Source: Chryseobacterium sp. SNU WT5
GTDB lineage: Bacteria; Bacteroidota; Bacteroidia; Flavobacteriales; Weeksellaceae
Direction of reading: 5' to 3'
Assembly (NCBI RefSeq): GCF_007362475.1
Contig: NZ_CP041687.1
Span: 930,001-994,000, forward strand
Length of the DNA stretch: 64,000 bases
Part shown: positions 25,414 through 45,368 of the stretch, piece after piece
Layout of the letters: each line of letters begins with the position of its first letter
Position numbering within the stretch: the stretch's first letter is position 1
Notes under the pieces: model-generated
The model's input: only the letters and a program-made list of their open reading frames with translations
What the model was told of the DNA's origin: nothing
Database searches by the model: none
Made by a program: the position numbers and the translations under genes

Positions 25414-25480
25414 AGGTTATAATTGATGATTGATAAATAATATATTTTAAATGTACGACATGAACCACTTATTTTTTTCA

Positions 25481-25623
25481 ACCACAAAGTCACAAAAGAG
25501 TGCATTATAGATGAATTAATAAAAGTTCACAAAATGAAAATCTATAGATTTTCAAAACTTTGTTATCTTGCAAAAGATGAGATTTTAGACTTTTCATCAT
25601 TTTAACCTTTGTGACTTTGTGGT
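25481..25623. mobile_element. MITE-like element without gene (143 bp)
   Basis: Its ends are inverted repeats: ACCACAAAGTCACAAAAG at 25481-25498 and the reverse complement of ACCACAAAGTCACAAAGG at 25606-25623 (17 of 18 match). In the centre is the perfect palindrome GAAAATCTATAGATTTTC (25536-25553). There is no ORF. The ends resemble those of the nuclease cassette at 42552-43141 (about 17 of 19 positions with one gap). It occupies most of the 319-bp gap 25414-25732 between rpmE2 and the GlmU-like gene; the rest of that gap holds only the rpmE2 terminator. Confidence 0.6.
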
Positions 25624-25680
25624 TTAAAATTCCTGATACTTAATCGCTTTCGGCATGCATCAAACAAATTTACACTAAAA

Positions 25681-40580: not shown

Positions 40581-40643
40581 ATTTTAGACCTAAAAAGTTT
40601 TTACCGCAAAAGCACAACGGAATATATTAAATTTTAAATTATA

Positions 40644-40689
40644 CAAAAGTTTGTAAAAGTGAAACAAATTTCATTTTTGCAAACTTTTG
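40644..40689. terminator. Long hairpin between convergent genes
   Basis: Arms of 21 nt (CAAAAGTTTG at the outer end, GTGAAA / TTTCAT at the inner end) match in 19 positions around a 4-nt loop. It lies between the ends of the glycosidase (+) and OsmC (-) genes and could end transcription from both sides. It is nested within imperfect ACCGCAAAAGCACAACGG (40607-40624) / CTTTTGTACCTTTTGTGGCT (40714-40733) ends similar to the mobile cassette. Confidence 0.6.
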
Positions 40690-40739
40690 ATTTCCGATCT
40701 TTTCTGAATTACTCTTTTGTACCTTTTGTGGCTAAAGGA

Positions 40740-41168
40740 TTATATTCCCACTTTCTCGCCATTCACAAAAACCTCATAATTCACCGTTACATTCGGCTCC
40801 ATGGTTTTTGAAACAGAACAATATTTTTCGAATGAAAGTGCCGCAGCTCGTTCTGCTTTTGTACGATCGATATTTCCTTCGACAAAAAACTTCACGATAA
40901 TGGTTTTAAATGGTTTGGCTTCGTCAACCTGAATTCTTTCGCCTTCTACTTCTGCTTTGAATCCCGTGATTTCCTGTCTTTGCTTTTTTAGGATTGAAAC
41001 CATGTCGATTCCACTGCAACCTGCTACGGCCATTAAAATAGTTTCCATCGGAGAAACACCTTCTTTACTTTCTGATTGCGAAGTATTGTTTAAAAGTATT
41101 TTGTTGCCCAACGAATTGGTGCATTCAAATAAATAATCGTCGTTGATTCTATTAAGGGTAATTTTCAT
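40740..41168 (-). CDS. OsmC family protein
   Basis: A 142-residue protein of the OsmC/Ohr superfamily, thiol peroxidases that detoxify organic hydroperoxides. Both reactive cysteines are present: VAGCSGIDMVSILKKQRQ near residue 51 and FEKYCSVSKTMEPNV near residue 118. The family contains OsmC, Ohr and YhfA-like members; this looks most like the YhfA-like branch, so a peroxidase role is likely but unproven. Confidence 0.9.
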   Translation of the reverse strand: MKITLNRINDDYLFECTNSLGNKILLNNTSQSESKEGVSPMETILMAVAGCSGIDMVSILKKQRQEITGFKAEVEGERIQVDEAKPFKTIIVKFFVEGNIDRTKAERAAALSFEKYCSVSKTMEPNVTVNYEVFVNGEKVGI

Positions 41169-41212
41169 AATAATGATTGTTTAAATTGGATAAGTAAAAA
41201 TTGAGATTTTAA

Positions 41213-42535
41213 TTACAAAATCCCTCTTGCTTTAATTTCCAAATATTTATTAATGACTTCAATATTCAAATTTTCAGGCAAAGTATAAACGGTGTAAATT
41301 CCAAACTTTCGAAGTTCCTGAATAATTAATTTTTTTTCGTACTCGAACTTCTCGGCGATGATCTCATCATACACTTCCTGAATGTTTTCCGGATTAGAGT
41401 TGATTACACTTTGAAGTTCCGCATTTTTAAAGAAAATAATCACCAACAAATGGTTTTTCGCAATTCCACGCAAATATTTCATTTGTCGATTTACGGCATC
41501 CAAAGTTTCGAAATTGGTAAAAAGTAAAATCAAACTTCTTTGTCCAATCGTATATTTTACATCCTGATATAATCGACTAAAGTCACTTTCGTATGAGTTG
41601 GTTTGAATATTATAAAGTGCTTCAGAGATCTTTCTCAACTGTCCCGATTTATTATCCGCAGCCACTTTGTGCTCTGTCTTCTTGGAGAACGTCATCATTC
41701 CGGCGCGGTCATTTTTTTTGAGAATAATGTGACTTAGAGCCATTGTAGCATTAATGGAATAATCGAGTAAACTCAATCCATTGAAAGGCATTTGCATCGT
41801 TCTGCCGTTATCAATCAACATAAAGATTCGTTGTGATTTCTCATCCTGAAACTGATTCACCATCAACTGATTTCGTTTCGAAGTCGCTTTCCAGTTAATG
41901 GTTCGCACGTCATCTCCGGGCACATATTCTTTGATCTGCTCAAACTCCATCGTGTGACCGAGTTTGCGGATCTTTTTAATTCCACCTAAAAGAAATTCGT
42001 TTTGGAGCGCCATCAATTCATATTTTCTTAAATGAATAAACGACGGATAGCTCGGCAAAATCGCTTCTTTCTGAAAAGTAAATCTCTTAGAAACCAATCC
42101 TAAAGGTGACTGCGCAAATACATTAAGGTTCCCAAAACTGTATTCACCGCGTTCTTTCGGTTCTAAAATATACTCAAAAAGGATATTTTTATTTTTATCA
42201 ATGGTTCTTTCAATATTAAAATCGCGCTTTTGAAACTGAAACGGAATTTCGTCAATAACCTTTGTTTTAATGGTAAAAGGATAATTGTTTTTTAGATCAA
42301 TTTTTATAGAATTCTGATCGCCATTTGATAATTTTTCCGGTAAAATTCTTTGTGCCTGCACCGCATTTTTTTGATTAAATAAAAGCATGAAATCCACAAT
42401 AAAAGCAATCACCACCAAAATCAATAAACCATGCGCAGCCCACATCAATACTGGAAAGAAAAAAGCCAGCACATAGATAAATCCCACGCCAAAAAGCGTG
42501 AAGAAAAAACGGTTATTGATGTATAGGTTTTTCAT
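41213..42535 (-). CDS. DUF58 domain-containing protein (MoxR partner)
   Basis: A 440-residue membrane-anchored protein. Two hydrophobic segments lie near the N-terminus (FFFTLFGVGFIYVLAFFFPV region), followed by a beta-rich domain and the DUF58 motif VPGDDVRTINWKATSKRNQ and a vWA-like fold (IFMLIDNGRTM). DUF58 proteins are encoded next to MoxR ATPases, which act as chaperones for vWA proteins. I use the ATG at 42535 (MKNLYINNRFFF); the GTG at 42565 lies in the repeat end. It is the last gene of the cluster, separated from moxR by the nuclease cassette. Confidence 0.9.
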   Translation of the reverse strand: MKNLYINNRFFFTLFGVGFIYVLAFFFPVLMWAAHGLLILVVIAFIVDFMLLFNQKNAVQAQRILPEKLSNGDQNSIKIDLKNNYPFTIKTKVIDEIPFQFQKRDFNIERTIDKNKNILFEYILEPKERGEYSFGNLNVFAQSPLGLVSKRFTFQKEAILPSYPSFIHLRKYELMALQNEFLLGGIKKIRKLGHTMEFEQIKEYVPGDDVRTINWKATSKRNQLMVNQFQDEKSQRIFMLIDNGRTMQMPFNGLSLLDYSINATMALSHIILKKNDRAGMMTFSKKTEHKVAADNKSGQLRKISEALYNIQTNSYESDFSRLYQDVKYTIGQRSLILLFTNFETLDAVNRQMKYLRGIAKNHLLVIIFFKNAELQSVINSNPENIQEVYDEIIAEKFEYEKKLIIQELRKFGIYTVYTLPENLNIEVINKYLEIKARGIL

Positions 42536-42551
42536 TTCTTTTAAAATTTTC

Positions 42552-43141
42552 ACCACAAAAGGCACAAAAGTTCTCAGCTATTAAAGTTGATTTTTTTTCC
42601 CTTTAAAGGAATAAATAAGATTTGCGTTTACATTAACATTTCATAATATTTATTTACTAAGGTTTCTTGTCCTTCGTGATAAAGGTTGATGACATTGAAA
42701 TTTAACAATATTCCCTTTGGAACTTTTAATAAATTCATGTAATTTAGTAACTGTGCTCTATGGATATCACTTACTGTCGAAACTGATTTTATTTCTACAA
42801 CAATTAGATTTTCAACTAAAAAATCACATCTTAAATCACAATTTAAACTTTTACCTTTATAAATAATAGGGACCACAACTTCACTTTTAAAATTAATATT
42901 TCTTAAGGTAAATTCTTCAATCAAGCATTTATGATAAACCATTTCAAGCAGTCCGGGACCTAAATTCTTGTGAACTTCAATTGCGGCACCATTAATTTTG
43001 TAAGTCAAATCTGTTAAAAAACTTTGTGTAATCATAACTTTGTTTTTTGATGAATGTTTACAGCATAGATCCTCCTCTTTTTTCTTCCTTTTAAAAGAAA
43101 TATTAAGTCTTTTAGACGAAAACTTTTGTGCCTTTTGTGGT
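42552..43141. mobile_element. Putative 590-bp cassette: nuclease gene between inverted repeats
   Basis: ACCACAAAAGGCACAAAAG plus TTCTC (42552-42575) and the reverse complement of the same 19-mer plus TTTTC (43118-43141) form 24-bp terminal inverted repeats with a single mismatch. Between them is only the GxxExxY gene. The cassette sits between moxR and the DUF58 gene, neighbours that are normally adjacent. I see no clear target-site duplication, and no transposase. Confidence 0.6.
42628..43035 (-). CDS. GxxExxY family protein (PD-(D/E)xK nuclease-like)
   Basis: A 135-residue protein with the name-giving motif at GLLEMVY (Gly28, Glu31, Tyr34) in NLGPGLLEMVYHKCLIEEF, and the nuclease-like pattern of Asp71 (LRCDFLVENL) followed by VVEIKSV (Glu81, Lys83), matching PD-(D/E)xK enzymes (Pfam PDDEXK_3). 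Its role is unknown, although such genes are often present in several copies in Bacteroidota. It is on the same strand as the flanking moxR and DUF58 genes and is the only gene in a cassette with 24-bp inverted-repeat ends. Confidence 0.9.
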   Translation of the reverse strand: MITQSFLTDLTYKINGAAIEVHKNLGPGLLEMVYHKCLIEEFTLRNINFKSEVVVPIIYKGKSLNCDLRCDFLVENLIVVEIKSVSTVSDIHRAQLLNYMNLLKVPKGILLNFNVINLYHEGQETLVNKYYEMLM

Positions 43142-43152
43142 TATATAATTTA

Positions 43153-44160
43153 CTATCTCGGAATTTCAATTGCTTCCAGAATCTGACGAATAATTTCATC
43201 GGCAGTTAAACCCTCCATTTCATGTTCGGGGGAAACCATTACGCGATGGCGCAGAACGGCGTAACTTGCCTCTTTGATATCTTCTGGTGTTACGAAATCT
43301 CTTCCACGAACGGCGGCAAAAGATTTGGACGCCGTCAATAAAGCCAGACTTGCTCTCGGTGAAGCACCTAAATAGAGGAATTGATTCTCTCTCGTGTTCA
43401 CTATAATTTTTGCGATATATTCTAACAAATGAGTTTCCACGACCACATCTTTTACAAGATTCTGATACATTTTCAACTGCGCTCCGGAAATCACTTTCTG
43501 AACGGCATCGGTTTTATCTTCTAATCTATTTTCATGTTGGTTTTTAATGATTTGTACTTCTTGCGAAAGATTCGGATAACCGACATTTATTTTGAAAAGA
43601 AAACGGTCGAGTTGGGCTTCCGGAAGTCGATACGTTCCTTCGTGCTCAATTGGATTTTGAGTAGCAACAACGAGGAAAGGTTCCTGCATTTCGTACTGTT
43701 TTCCATCTATGGTGATTTGGCGTTCTTCCATGACTTCAAACAAAGCAGCTTGCGTTTTTGCTGGTGAACGGTTGATCTCATCAATCAAAATAAAACTGGA
43801 AAATATGGGTCCTTTTTTAAATTCAAACTCAGAATTTTTAACGTTAAAAATAGAAGTTCCCAAAATATCTGACGGCATTAAATCTGGTGTAAACTGAATT
43901 CTACTGAAACCAACATCGATCGTTTTTGCCAATAATTTTGCCGTAATGGTTTTCGCCACGCCCGGCACACCTTCTATCAAAACGTGTCCATTGGATAAAA
44001 GCGCGACCAATAAATGTTCAATCATCGATTCTTGCCCGATAATTACTTTTCCAATTTCGGCTTTTACCAATTCCAGACTTTGTTGAAGTTCGGTCATATC
44101 CAATCGGGAATGAAATTCTGTATTTGTATTTTCTTGATTTTGATTTTCAAAATTTTCCAT
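43153..44160 (-). CDS. MoxR-family AAA+ ATPase
   Basis: A 335-residue AAA+ ATPase. Walker A is GVPGVAKT (64-71), Walker B FILIDE (123-128), and sensor and lid regions follow (ATQNPIEHEGTYRLPEAQLD, LGASPRASLALLTASKS). MoxR proteins act as chaperones for vWA and DUF58 proteins and are linked to stress resistance. The gene is part of the membrane cluster and starts 50 bp after the DUF4350 gene. Confidence 0.95.
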   Translation of the reverse strand: MENFENQNQENTNTEFHSRLDMTELQQSLELVKAEIGKVIIGQESMIEHLLVALLSNGHVLIEGVPGVAKTITAKLLAKTIDVGFSRIQFTPDLMPSDILGTSIFNVKNSEFEFKKGPIFSSFILIDEINRSPAKTQAALFEVMEERQITIDGKQYEMQEPFLVVATQNPIEHEGTYRLPEAQLDRFLFKINVGYPNLSQEVQIIKNQHENRLEDKTDAVQKVISGAQLKMYQNLVKDVVVETHLLEYIAKIIVNTRENQFLYLGASPRASLALLTASKSFAAVRGRDFVTPEDIKEASYAVLRHRVMVSPEHEMEGLTADEIIRQILEAIEIPR

Positions 44161-44210
44161 AATTATATTGGGTTCAATGGTATTCTATTTTAATTTAAAT
44201 TGCTGTGATT

Positions 44211-45368
44211 TTAAAGTAAAATCTCGTCTAACAACTTATTCATTTTCATTAAATCTGCCTGCATCACGCTTGCATAAGGATCCTGTCCTTTTTTTATCAA
44301 TTCGGTGGCTTCTTTAATTTTCTCCACACTTTTTCCTGTTTTCAAATGGAGAAGGTTGATAAATTTCTCATCTAAATCTTTGGTATCAATCATTAAATCC
44401 ATTCTCACCCGATTCAGAAAGTATTGCGCTTTCTTGGCCATCATATCGTGAAAATCTCCTTCCTGTAAATATAAATTCCCGATGCTTTTTACAAATTCAA
44501 CCGATTTATTTTTCTTGGCTTCAATAATGGGAACAATTCTCTGTTTGCGTTTTGCATTAAAAATGATAAACAGTAAAAGTCCGCCTAATAATAACCACCA
44601 AGCATAACGCAAACCAGGACTGGCTAAAATAAATCGCAACGGCGAACGAGATTCTGCTACATTTTTATTATCACCTGAAAACCAAACTGTTTCACGATTA
44701 GGTAGATAAGAAAATACATCTTGAACATATTTCTCGTTTCCGGGTTTTAGTAAATAGTAATTGGTCAATATCAAAGGTTCTGAATGTAAATAAAGATGAC
44801 CTTTCCCGTGATTAATCTTTATAAAATTTGCAATTTTAGTTTCACTTTCTTCTATTCCTAAAATTTCATGTTTTTCGATAATCAGTTCAAATACTTTTCC
44901 TGAGGGTAGCTTATCTAACAGTAATGAATCCTTCGAAAATTTATGATCAGTTAATGTTAACAAATAACGGTCTTCATAATTGACCTTGGACACAAAGAAT
45001 CCAAGAGAATCTGCTATCTTTCGACTAAAGGAACCGGTTAGTACCATTGCGTCTGAACCTTTTTTTACGTTCTGAAGAATTTTGTTCCAGGATTCCGAAT
45101 CTATTTCTGACTCGATTATTAAGATGTTATGCGGTTTTAATTTTTGAGTTTTGTAGAAGTCATAAGGTGAAAAATTGGTTCGTTTTACTTTATCATTCAA
45201 CAGTTGATCAACTTCTTTAGAAAAAATAAAAAGTCCGAAAGGTGATTTTTCATTAACGTCGAAATTTTTACGCCAATCGGTAACGGCGGATTTGCTCAAT
45301 TCCAGCAACGCCAAAACCACCATCACGATGATGAAAATTAAACCATATAATTTGAACGTCTTATTCAT
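44211..45368 (-). CDS. DUF4350 domain-containing membrane protein
   Basis: A 385-residue protein with an N-terminal membrane segment (LIFIIVMVVLALLEL, residues 10-24), an outer domain with the DUF4350 pattern (SPFGLFIFSKEVDQLL, NILIIESEI, DAMVLTGSFSRK), a second membrane segment near residue 255 (YAWWLLLGGLLLFIIF) and a cytoplasmic tail with helices. The family occurs in MoxR/DUF58/DUF4129 clusters of Bacteroidota and Actinobacteria. The gene lies 27 bp after the DUF4129 gene. Function unknown. Confidence 0.88.
   Translation of the reverse strand: MNKTFKLYGLIFIIVMVVLALLELSKSAVTDWRKNFDVNEKSPFGLFIFSKEVDQLLNDKVKRTNFSPYDFYKTQKLKPHNILIIESEIDSESWNKILQNVKKGSDAMVLTGSFSRKIADSLGFFVSKVNYEDRYLLTLTDHKFSKDSLLLDKLPSGKVFELIIEKHEILGIEESETKIANFIKINHGKGHLYLHSEPLILTNYYLLKPGNEKYVQDVFSYLPNRETVWFSGDNKNVAESRSPLRFILASPGLRYAWWLLLGGLLLFIIFNAKRKQRIVPIIEAKKNKSVEFVKSIGNLYLQEGDFHDMMAKKAQYFLNRVRMDLMIDTKDLDEKFINLLHLKTGKSVEKIKEATELIKKGQDPYASVMQADLMKMNKLLDEILL

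Follow-up and report, generated by a model that had tools for sequence, protein, structure and literature searches.

Several groups of described elements resemble parts of the locus analysed here. In RAYT/REP systems, whose enzymes are REP-associated tyrosine transposases related to IS200/IS605, a gene lies between two inverted repeats that change with the encoded protein, the same repeats are dispersed, often as inverted doublets, with REPs in more than 100 copies, and presence of the gene is reported to correlate with the number of its cognate repeats (excerpted text of PMC2817692). In the intervening sequences (IVS) of 23S rRNA that carry an S23p ORF, as in cassettes of TIGR02436 four-helix-bundle genes, one small ORF is found between terminal inverted repeats. 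Cas4 proteins, in turn, are related to the enzyme of the present locus by predicted fold, and share four conserved cysteines (PMC5704561, in the part available).

The locus lies in a stretch of 64,000 nucleotides from Chryseobacterium sp. SNU WT5 (the window), and consists of a GxxExxY gene flanked by inverted repeats, an arrangement that is also found above an arm-matching threshold in 56 of 92 copies from the genus and 32 of 69 copies from a phylum sample. As in RAYT/REPIN systems, the repeats of the cassette are also dispersed as doublets. The predicted enzyme, however, is a Cas4-like PD-(D/E)XK protein rather than an IS200-type tyrosine transposase, and the outer ends are direct-repeat pairs rather than short self-palindromes with a GT(A/G)G head (the outer strand of the cassette end terminates in GTGG or GCGG). 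Compared with RAYT/REPIN, the ends are also fewer (tens per genome or less), the coupling of repeat to protein is uneven and the correlation between gene and repeat is weaker. RAYT/REPIN is the closest working model for the cassette, which is not itself a member, since its nuclease has no relation to the RAYT transposase and its repeats have another construction. The 23S rRNA IVS differs in having an unrelated protein and in its location, the GxxExxY unit being placed in spacers of protein-coding operons (here moxR-DUF58) rather than in rRNA, and the GxxExxY arms show no sign of a pairing constraint at the RNA level. The TIGR02436 cassettes of this genus are alike in their sense orientation and in the junctions that they occupy.

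Anatomy of the cassette and its gene

The arms of the cassette (42552-42598 and 43095-43141) are inverted repeats with 79% identity across 47 nt, and the ends reported in the preliminary description were recovered with their core coordinates, the 24 outermost bp containing a single mismatch. A 20-bp core, with up to 3 mismatches allowed, has 3 matches in the window, compared with 0.01 expected from shuffled sequence; these are the two arms and positions 40712-40731. As a control, inverted matches of at least 14.5 between flanks were sought for 54 non-overlapping ORFs of the window, and the GxxExxY gene is the one ORF that has them. The outer end upstream of the gene (43118-43141, minus strand) contains the type A motif CCACAAAAGGCACAAAAG, and is followed by a subterminal sequence (43036-43117, minus strand) in which the inner end motif is weakly recognisable. 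On the downstream side, the subterminal sequence (42576-42627, plus strand) includes the inner end motif CCTTTAAAGGAATAAATAAG and is bounded by the inverted copy of the outer end (42552-42575, plus strand). The end sequence common to other elements extends inward to about 65 nt. The end of the window lineage is bipartite, comprising an outer direct-repeat pair, CCACAAAAGNCACAAAAG, and the inner motif, with the two ends inverted.

The interval between the arms holds one gene alone, GxxExxY (42628-43035, minus strand; 135 amino acids), with no transposase beside it. It is flanked upstream by the gene for a moxR-type AAA ATPase (43153-44160, minus strand) and downstream by a DUF58 gene (41213-42535, minus strand), all three in the same direction. 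The DUF58 start is placed at the ATG at 42535, in agreement with relatives, the mechanical ORF start at 42565 falling inside the arm. It is close to certain that the unit is a GxxExxY cassette, that is, one predicted nuclease gene between two inverted bipartite ends. The single-gene, transposase-free unit of the preliminary description, with no clear target-site duplication, was borne out; no such duplication is readable at the moxR-DUF58 junction or at 4 aligned palindrome sites, where the spacers are too diverged for sharp breakpoints. The proposal of a mobile cassette held in part: gene and inverted ends form a unit, and the ends recur at different sites, but as lineage-specific versions of a periodic motif, bipartite and also present as gene-less palindromes, rather than as one shared 24-mer. 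Two such palindromes are found elsewhere in the window, a diverged member of the same superfamily with outer and inner motifs present (40604-40731), and one at 25475-25629 whose ends carry AACCACAAAGTCACAAA, as in a different GxxExxY lineage (L103/L060/L093).

The protein matches TIGR04256, GxxExxY (135.5 bits versus a curated cut-off of 35), and PF13366, PDDEXK_3 (132.3 versus 22). Of the PD-(D/E)xK residues named earlier, Asp 71 is invariant and Glu 81 and Lys 83 are at least 90% conserved when 25 and 47 sequences are aligned. The protein is predicted to adopt a Cas4-like PD-(D/E)XK fold: the AlphaFold model (pLDDT 96.8) has as its nearest fold the Cas4 protein SSO0001 (4ic1; Z 9.4, rmsd 4.5 over 102 residues; Foldseek E 3.4e-3), a Cas4 profile matches with E 3.5e-5, Pfam Cas_Cas4 falls just below its cut-off (22.3 versus 22.7 bits), and a sequence search of the PDB returned one weak match, again 4ic1 (E 0.3). 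Profile, fold and catalytic core thus resemble those of CAS-, solo- and MGE-Cas4 proteins, from which GxxExxY differs in its length of 135 residues and in the lack of any cysteine among the invariant or 90%-conserved columns of the same two alignments. The gene was also considered as a phage or defence gene and rejected as such, PHROGs and PADLOC yielding weak Cas4/CRISPR-type matches only.

The gene is under purifying selection, with median dN/dS values of 0.03-0.12 in six ortholog groups (63 of 93 pairs usable, with dS near saturation). With one copy per cluster, 68 of 82 clear sites have the cassette in the same direction as both its neighbours, 5 have it opposite to both and 9 are mixed; the corresponding numbers for 48 ordinary window genes are 25, 4 and 19. 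GxxExxY genes were found in 73 of 148 genomes sampled from the phylum (E <= 1e-20), and the literature searched, to which subscription papers did not belong, yielded no account of their role or of their ends.

Copies, ends and palindromes in related genomes

The junction was surveyed in 36 genomes of the genus, requiring a MoxR match at E <= 1e-120. Such a match was obtained in 21, and DUF58 adjoins in all 21, in keeping with the earlier statement that the two genes are normally adjacent. The window genome alone among these carries a GxxExxY gene at the junction, and the same gene at the same place without repeats was not found in any of them. In G035, the junction holds a short palindrome that lacks a gene and is bounded by type A-like ends; two genomes (G017 and G008) have TTTTGTGGT beside DUF58, identical to the outermost 9 bp of the right end in the window; G006 has one type B end, and G029 and G004 have apparently decayed ends. 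In G001, a four-helix-bundle gene (TIGR02436, 138.8 bits) lies between periodic inverted repeats, and the spacers of the remaining junctions are short or unrelated. Another periodic repeat, of the AATGAGCAATAAGTAATTGGTAATGAG kind, was also seen, whole or in part, in the moxR-DUF58 spacer of G003, G030, G007, G010 and G006 (L068-L070, L074, L076). Given the palindrome and end remnants at the junctions of relatives, the ends may be older or longer-lived than the gene at this position, and the earlier inference that the unit inserted as a block is not demonstrated, since some relatives have such sequences there and most copies of the genus are inherited in place.

Elsewhere in the genus, GxxExxY matches occur in 33 of 36 genomes, with up to 11 per genome, some of them broken (6 of the 92 copies examined have an internal stop codon). 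Own arms score a median of 16.25, compared with 9.5 between arms of different copies, under a strict, ungapped scheme in which the threshold of 14.5 is the 95th percentile of the cross scores. Below this threshold are 36 of the 92 genus copies and 37 of the 69 phylum copies, and for 19 of 92 genus copies the own score is at or above the 99th cross-score percentile; flanks displaced outward as a control reach 14.5 in 1 of 92 genus and 0 of 67 phylum copies. Clear arms are mostly made of short periodic motifs (CACAAAAG, CGCAAAG, CACAGAG, CACAGAT, CACGAAT and others), the version varying with the gene lineage. Inverted ends thus accompany many GxxExxY genes at other loci, and in the clade of the window the same ends and gene recur at different sites.

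Grouped by site, the 92 genus copies form 14 clusters with more than one copy, of which one is a pair within one genome and two hold copies of different lineages, and 12 singletons. Recent transposition of every copy is ruled out by this distribution; because most genus copies share sites, recent movement is rare, and vertical inheritance explains much of the distribution. One chromosomal site is occupied by two GxxExxY lineages according to species (L060/L093/L103/L106 versus L065/L131/L137/L142/L143/L146), the former with CCACAAAGTCACAAAG-type arms in three of four cases and the latter mostly with AACACATTAGT-type arms.

The ends also occur without a gene. The pattern CCRCAAAAGNNRCAAAAG is present in 28 of the 36 genus genomes at 0 to 87 copies per genome, while a reversed control pattern has a single match overall, and a good part of the copies listed are opposite-strand pairs bounding palindromes of about 130 bp that contain no gene. 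Each end is bipartite and about 65 nt long, in palindromes and cassettes alike. An inner-end profile built from gene-bearing type A elements scores on average 7.2 bits on gene-less type A palindromes (16 halves) and 0.6 bits on type B (14 halves), and the type B profile gives 10.7 bits on B and 0.8 on A. The profiles score type by type; each subfamily of palindromes is thus related to its own cassettes, and it is close to certain that cassettes and palindromes of types A and B have their two-part ends in common. Comparable gene-less intergenic palindromes are known from the ERIC type. MITEs resemble the present palindromes as well, in being gene-less, intergenic and similar at their ends to a gene-bearing element (PMC2817692, in excerpt), and, like insertion sequences, differ in that neither a DDE transposase nor a target-site duplication was found here. 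At four sites compared with relatives, palindromes are situated in spacers close behind or between genes, and at one aligned site the species form three groups, one with a type B palindrome, one with a CACAGATT palindrome and one with no palindrome. A known RNA family was ruled out as their identity by an Rfam search of 18 palindrome loci and window positions 41000-45000, which returned nothing above the gathering score.

Several arrangements of these palindromes and ends were observed. At L180 (G004:C34:12900-14400), seven near-identical type A palindromes form an array with GTTTGAG/GGGTTTT-rich linkers. In the window genome (G000), tandem 137-bp units, of which three were seen, each begin with a type A end (L014-L016; G000:C1:2721637-2721926 onward), and the last end is broken by a CCTGCCTGTCGGCAGACAGG palindrome, perhaps an insertion. 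At L325 (G000:C1:223170-223590), a terminator-like hairpin lies between the arms of a CACAGATT-type palindrome; G010 has a similar hairpin with no arms (L324), which gives the impression that the arms were placed around a sequence already present.

A second small gene family occurs in a similar setting. TIGR02436 is matched in all 36 genus genomes, and its four-helix-bundle genes (L187 in G001, L147, L148, L151, L187-L216) are often flanked by inverted repeats that are likewise periodic but particular to them, TTAGAAGTTAGAGG, GAACAAAGAGAAAAG and GTGAACTTGTGAAC. In G001 (moxR junction) and in G014, G006 and G029 (L102 site), they stand where other genomes have GxxExxY.

Coupling of ends to protein lineage and gene presence

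Because vertical inheritance explains so much, arms were compared between different site clusters only, copies being linked into clusters by flank homology (blastn and tblastx). For the 22,381 pairs so formed by 218 copies from 89 clusters, arm similarity is correlated with protein identity (Pearson coefficient 0.48), at a value that none of 1000 permutations equalled (best 0.08). With a single copy per cluster (n = 89), the coefficient is 0.285 (0 of 2000 permutations), and within the genus alone, where close pairs at different sites are few, it is 0.32 (0 of 2000). Counted by cluster pairs, arms match in 19 and fail in 56 of the 75 pairs whose nearest copies are at least 65% identical, and match in 44 of 411 at 55-65% identity, 18 of 897 at 45-55% and 11 of 2533 below 45%. 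When only directly linked sites are excluded, 65% of pairs match at 65-75% identity and 88% at 75-85%, percentages which the cluster-pair count traces largely to a few big clusters of the clade of the window.

This clade comprises 44 copies at least 68% identical to the window protein, in 4 site clusters; the own arms of 38 of the 44 score over 14.5, and arms match in 409 of 429 pairs from different sites. In records of Chryseobacterium, Epilithonimonas, Elizabethkingia and Kaistella, the clade is again accompanied by type A ends. The named-genome set is weak for a comparison of own with cross scores, most of its members sharing type A ends (cross 95th percentile 25). Outside the clade and its neighbours, close different-site pairs mostly show no arm match, and 51 of the 89 site representatives are below the arm threshold. 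More distant copies in records of Algoriphagus, Ignavibacteria, Spirochaetales and Humisphaera, some of these records being MAGs, have CACATAG, CACAGAT or CACGAAG ends. The coupling of end to protein is real against chance, strong in the clade of the window and weak in others under the strict ungapped score.

The numbers of dispersed ends are suggestive of a further link, in which repeat abundance follows gene presence. Type B outer ends that lie apart from the gene number 4, 27, 12, 14, 0, 12, 3 and 2 in the 8 genomes whose type B gene is intact; of the remaining 28 genomes, 20 have none and the others have 1, 1, 1, 1, 2, 2, 3 and 10 (p = 9e-5, uncorrected for relatedness). For type A, the association of ends with the gene has p = 0.004, with a counterexample in G006, which contains 39 type A ends and no type A gene. 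On a one-gene species tree, 5 independent pairs are available, of which on average 2.8 point in the same direction and about 0 in the opposite one (threshold 2), and the result is not significant.

A working model and its alternatives

The reading preferred here is of a RAYT/REPIN-like system in which an unrelated nuclease acts on its own ends, and a probability of about 0.40 is assigned to it, lowered from 0.45 after the cluster count because the high pair percentages come largely from few big clusters. The Cas4-like nuclease would recognise the ends of its own lineage as DNA and cut or process them, and intergenic spacers would thereby be seeded with palindromes that consist of two abutting ends and no gene. 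Now and then the gene would have moved together with its ends, and between movements purifying selection would hold it in place; its expression would probably come by read-through from the upstream operon. The wider proposition, that GxxExxY proteins are end-specific enzymes of an unrecognised repeat-spreading class extending beyond one genus, with a Cas4-like nuclease in place of the RAYT transposase and with the four-helix (IVS/S23p-type) cassettes as a second branch competing for the same spacers, is doubtful at present.

The strongest objection to the RAYT/REPIN-like reading comes from the four-helix genes, which are not nucleases and have comparable cassettes. Because they share architecture (own arms of at least 14.5 at 14 of 30 loci) and junctions with GxxExxY, there may be another builder of cassettes. 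Either each protein family serves its own repeats, or a common process builds cassettes around small genes. The latter would suit a passive role for the gene, in which periodic repeats are spread by host replication or repair, or by an unknown factor, small genes are caught between them, and the nuclease has some other job, for instance in DNA processing or defence. The abundance of type A ends without the gene in G006, the conservation and stability in place of the GxxExxY gene, and the weak coupling outside the clade of the window all agree with such capture. Random capture does not, however, predict that ends track protein lineage at unrelated sites beyond chance, nor that gene-less palindromes and the cognate cassette share inner ends, and the passive role is on balance rather unlikely.

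Two further explanations were considered. In homing, the gene-less palindromes would be older, the nuclease would cut at the centre of the dyad, and the gene would be copied in with the arms as homology. The resemblance of cassettes to a palindrome with a gene at its centre, the G035 palindrome at the very junction occupied in the window, and the different GxxExxY lineages at one site in two clusters are what homing would leave behind, but a cassette that lost its gene would explain them too, and a gene-less allele of otherwise identical sequence was not found; this origin is considered improbable. Least credible is a hairpin element acting at the RNA level, akin to the intervening sequences of 23S rRNA, with arms that pair in the transcript, a loop that holds the gene, and insertion and excision by way of RNA. 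In the IVS, a comparable hairpin carries S23p, itself a four-helix bundle (PMC4990558, as excerpted), the predicted fold of the cassette RNA has its arms paired (z -5.1 versus shuffles), and sense orientation prevails both among the GxxExxY sites and at 27 of 30 four-helix loci (not site-deduplicated), although it is also expected if the gene needs read-through transcription. Selection for an RNA stem was rejected by a wobble test over 70 site clusters, in which G.U-compatible arm mismatches are not in excess (159 versus 172 of A.C type, every copy of a cluster being counted, which leaves the mismatches non-independent; taken site by site, G.U predominates at 18 and A.C at 26). The lack of a G.U excess is as expected if arm matching is kept at the DNA level, and argues against RNA pairing as its cause.

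If the nuclease does work on the ends of its own lineage, as the RAYT/REPIN-like reading has it, a function would be provided for the GxxExxY family, for which none was found in the literature searched, together with an origin for many intergenic palindromes. Types A and B would then be natural pairs of enzyme and site, and a class of enzymes related to the nucleases of CRISPR adaptation would join those thought to maintain repeat populations in bacteria.
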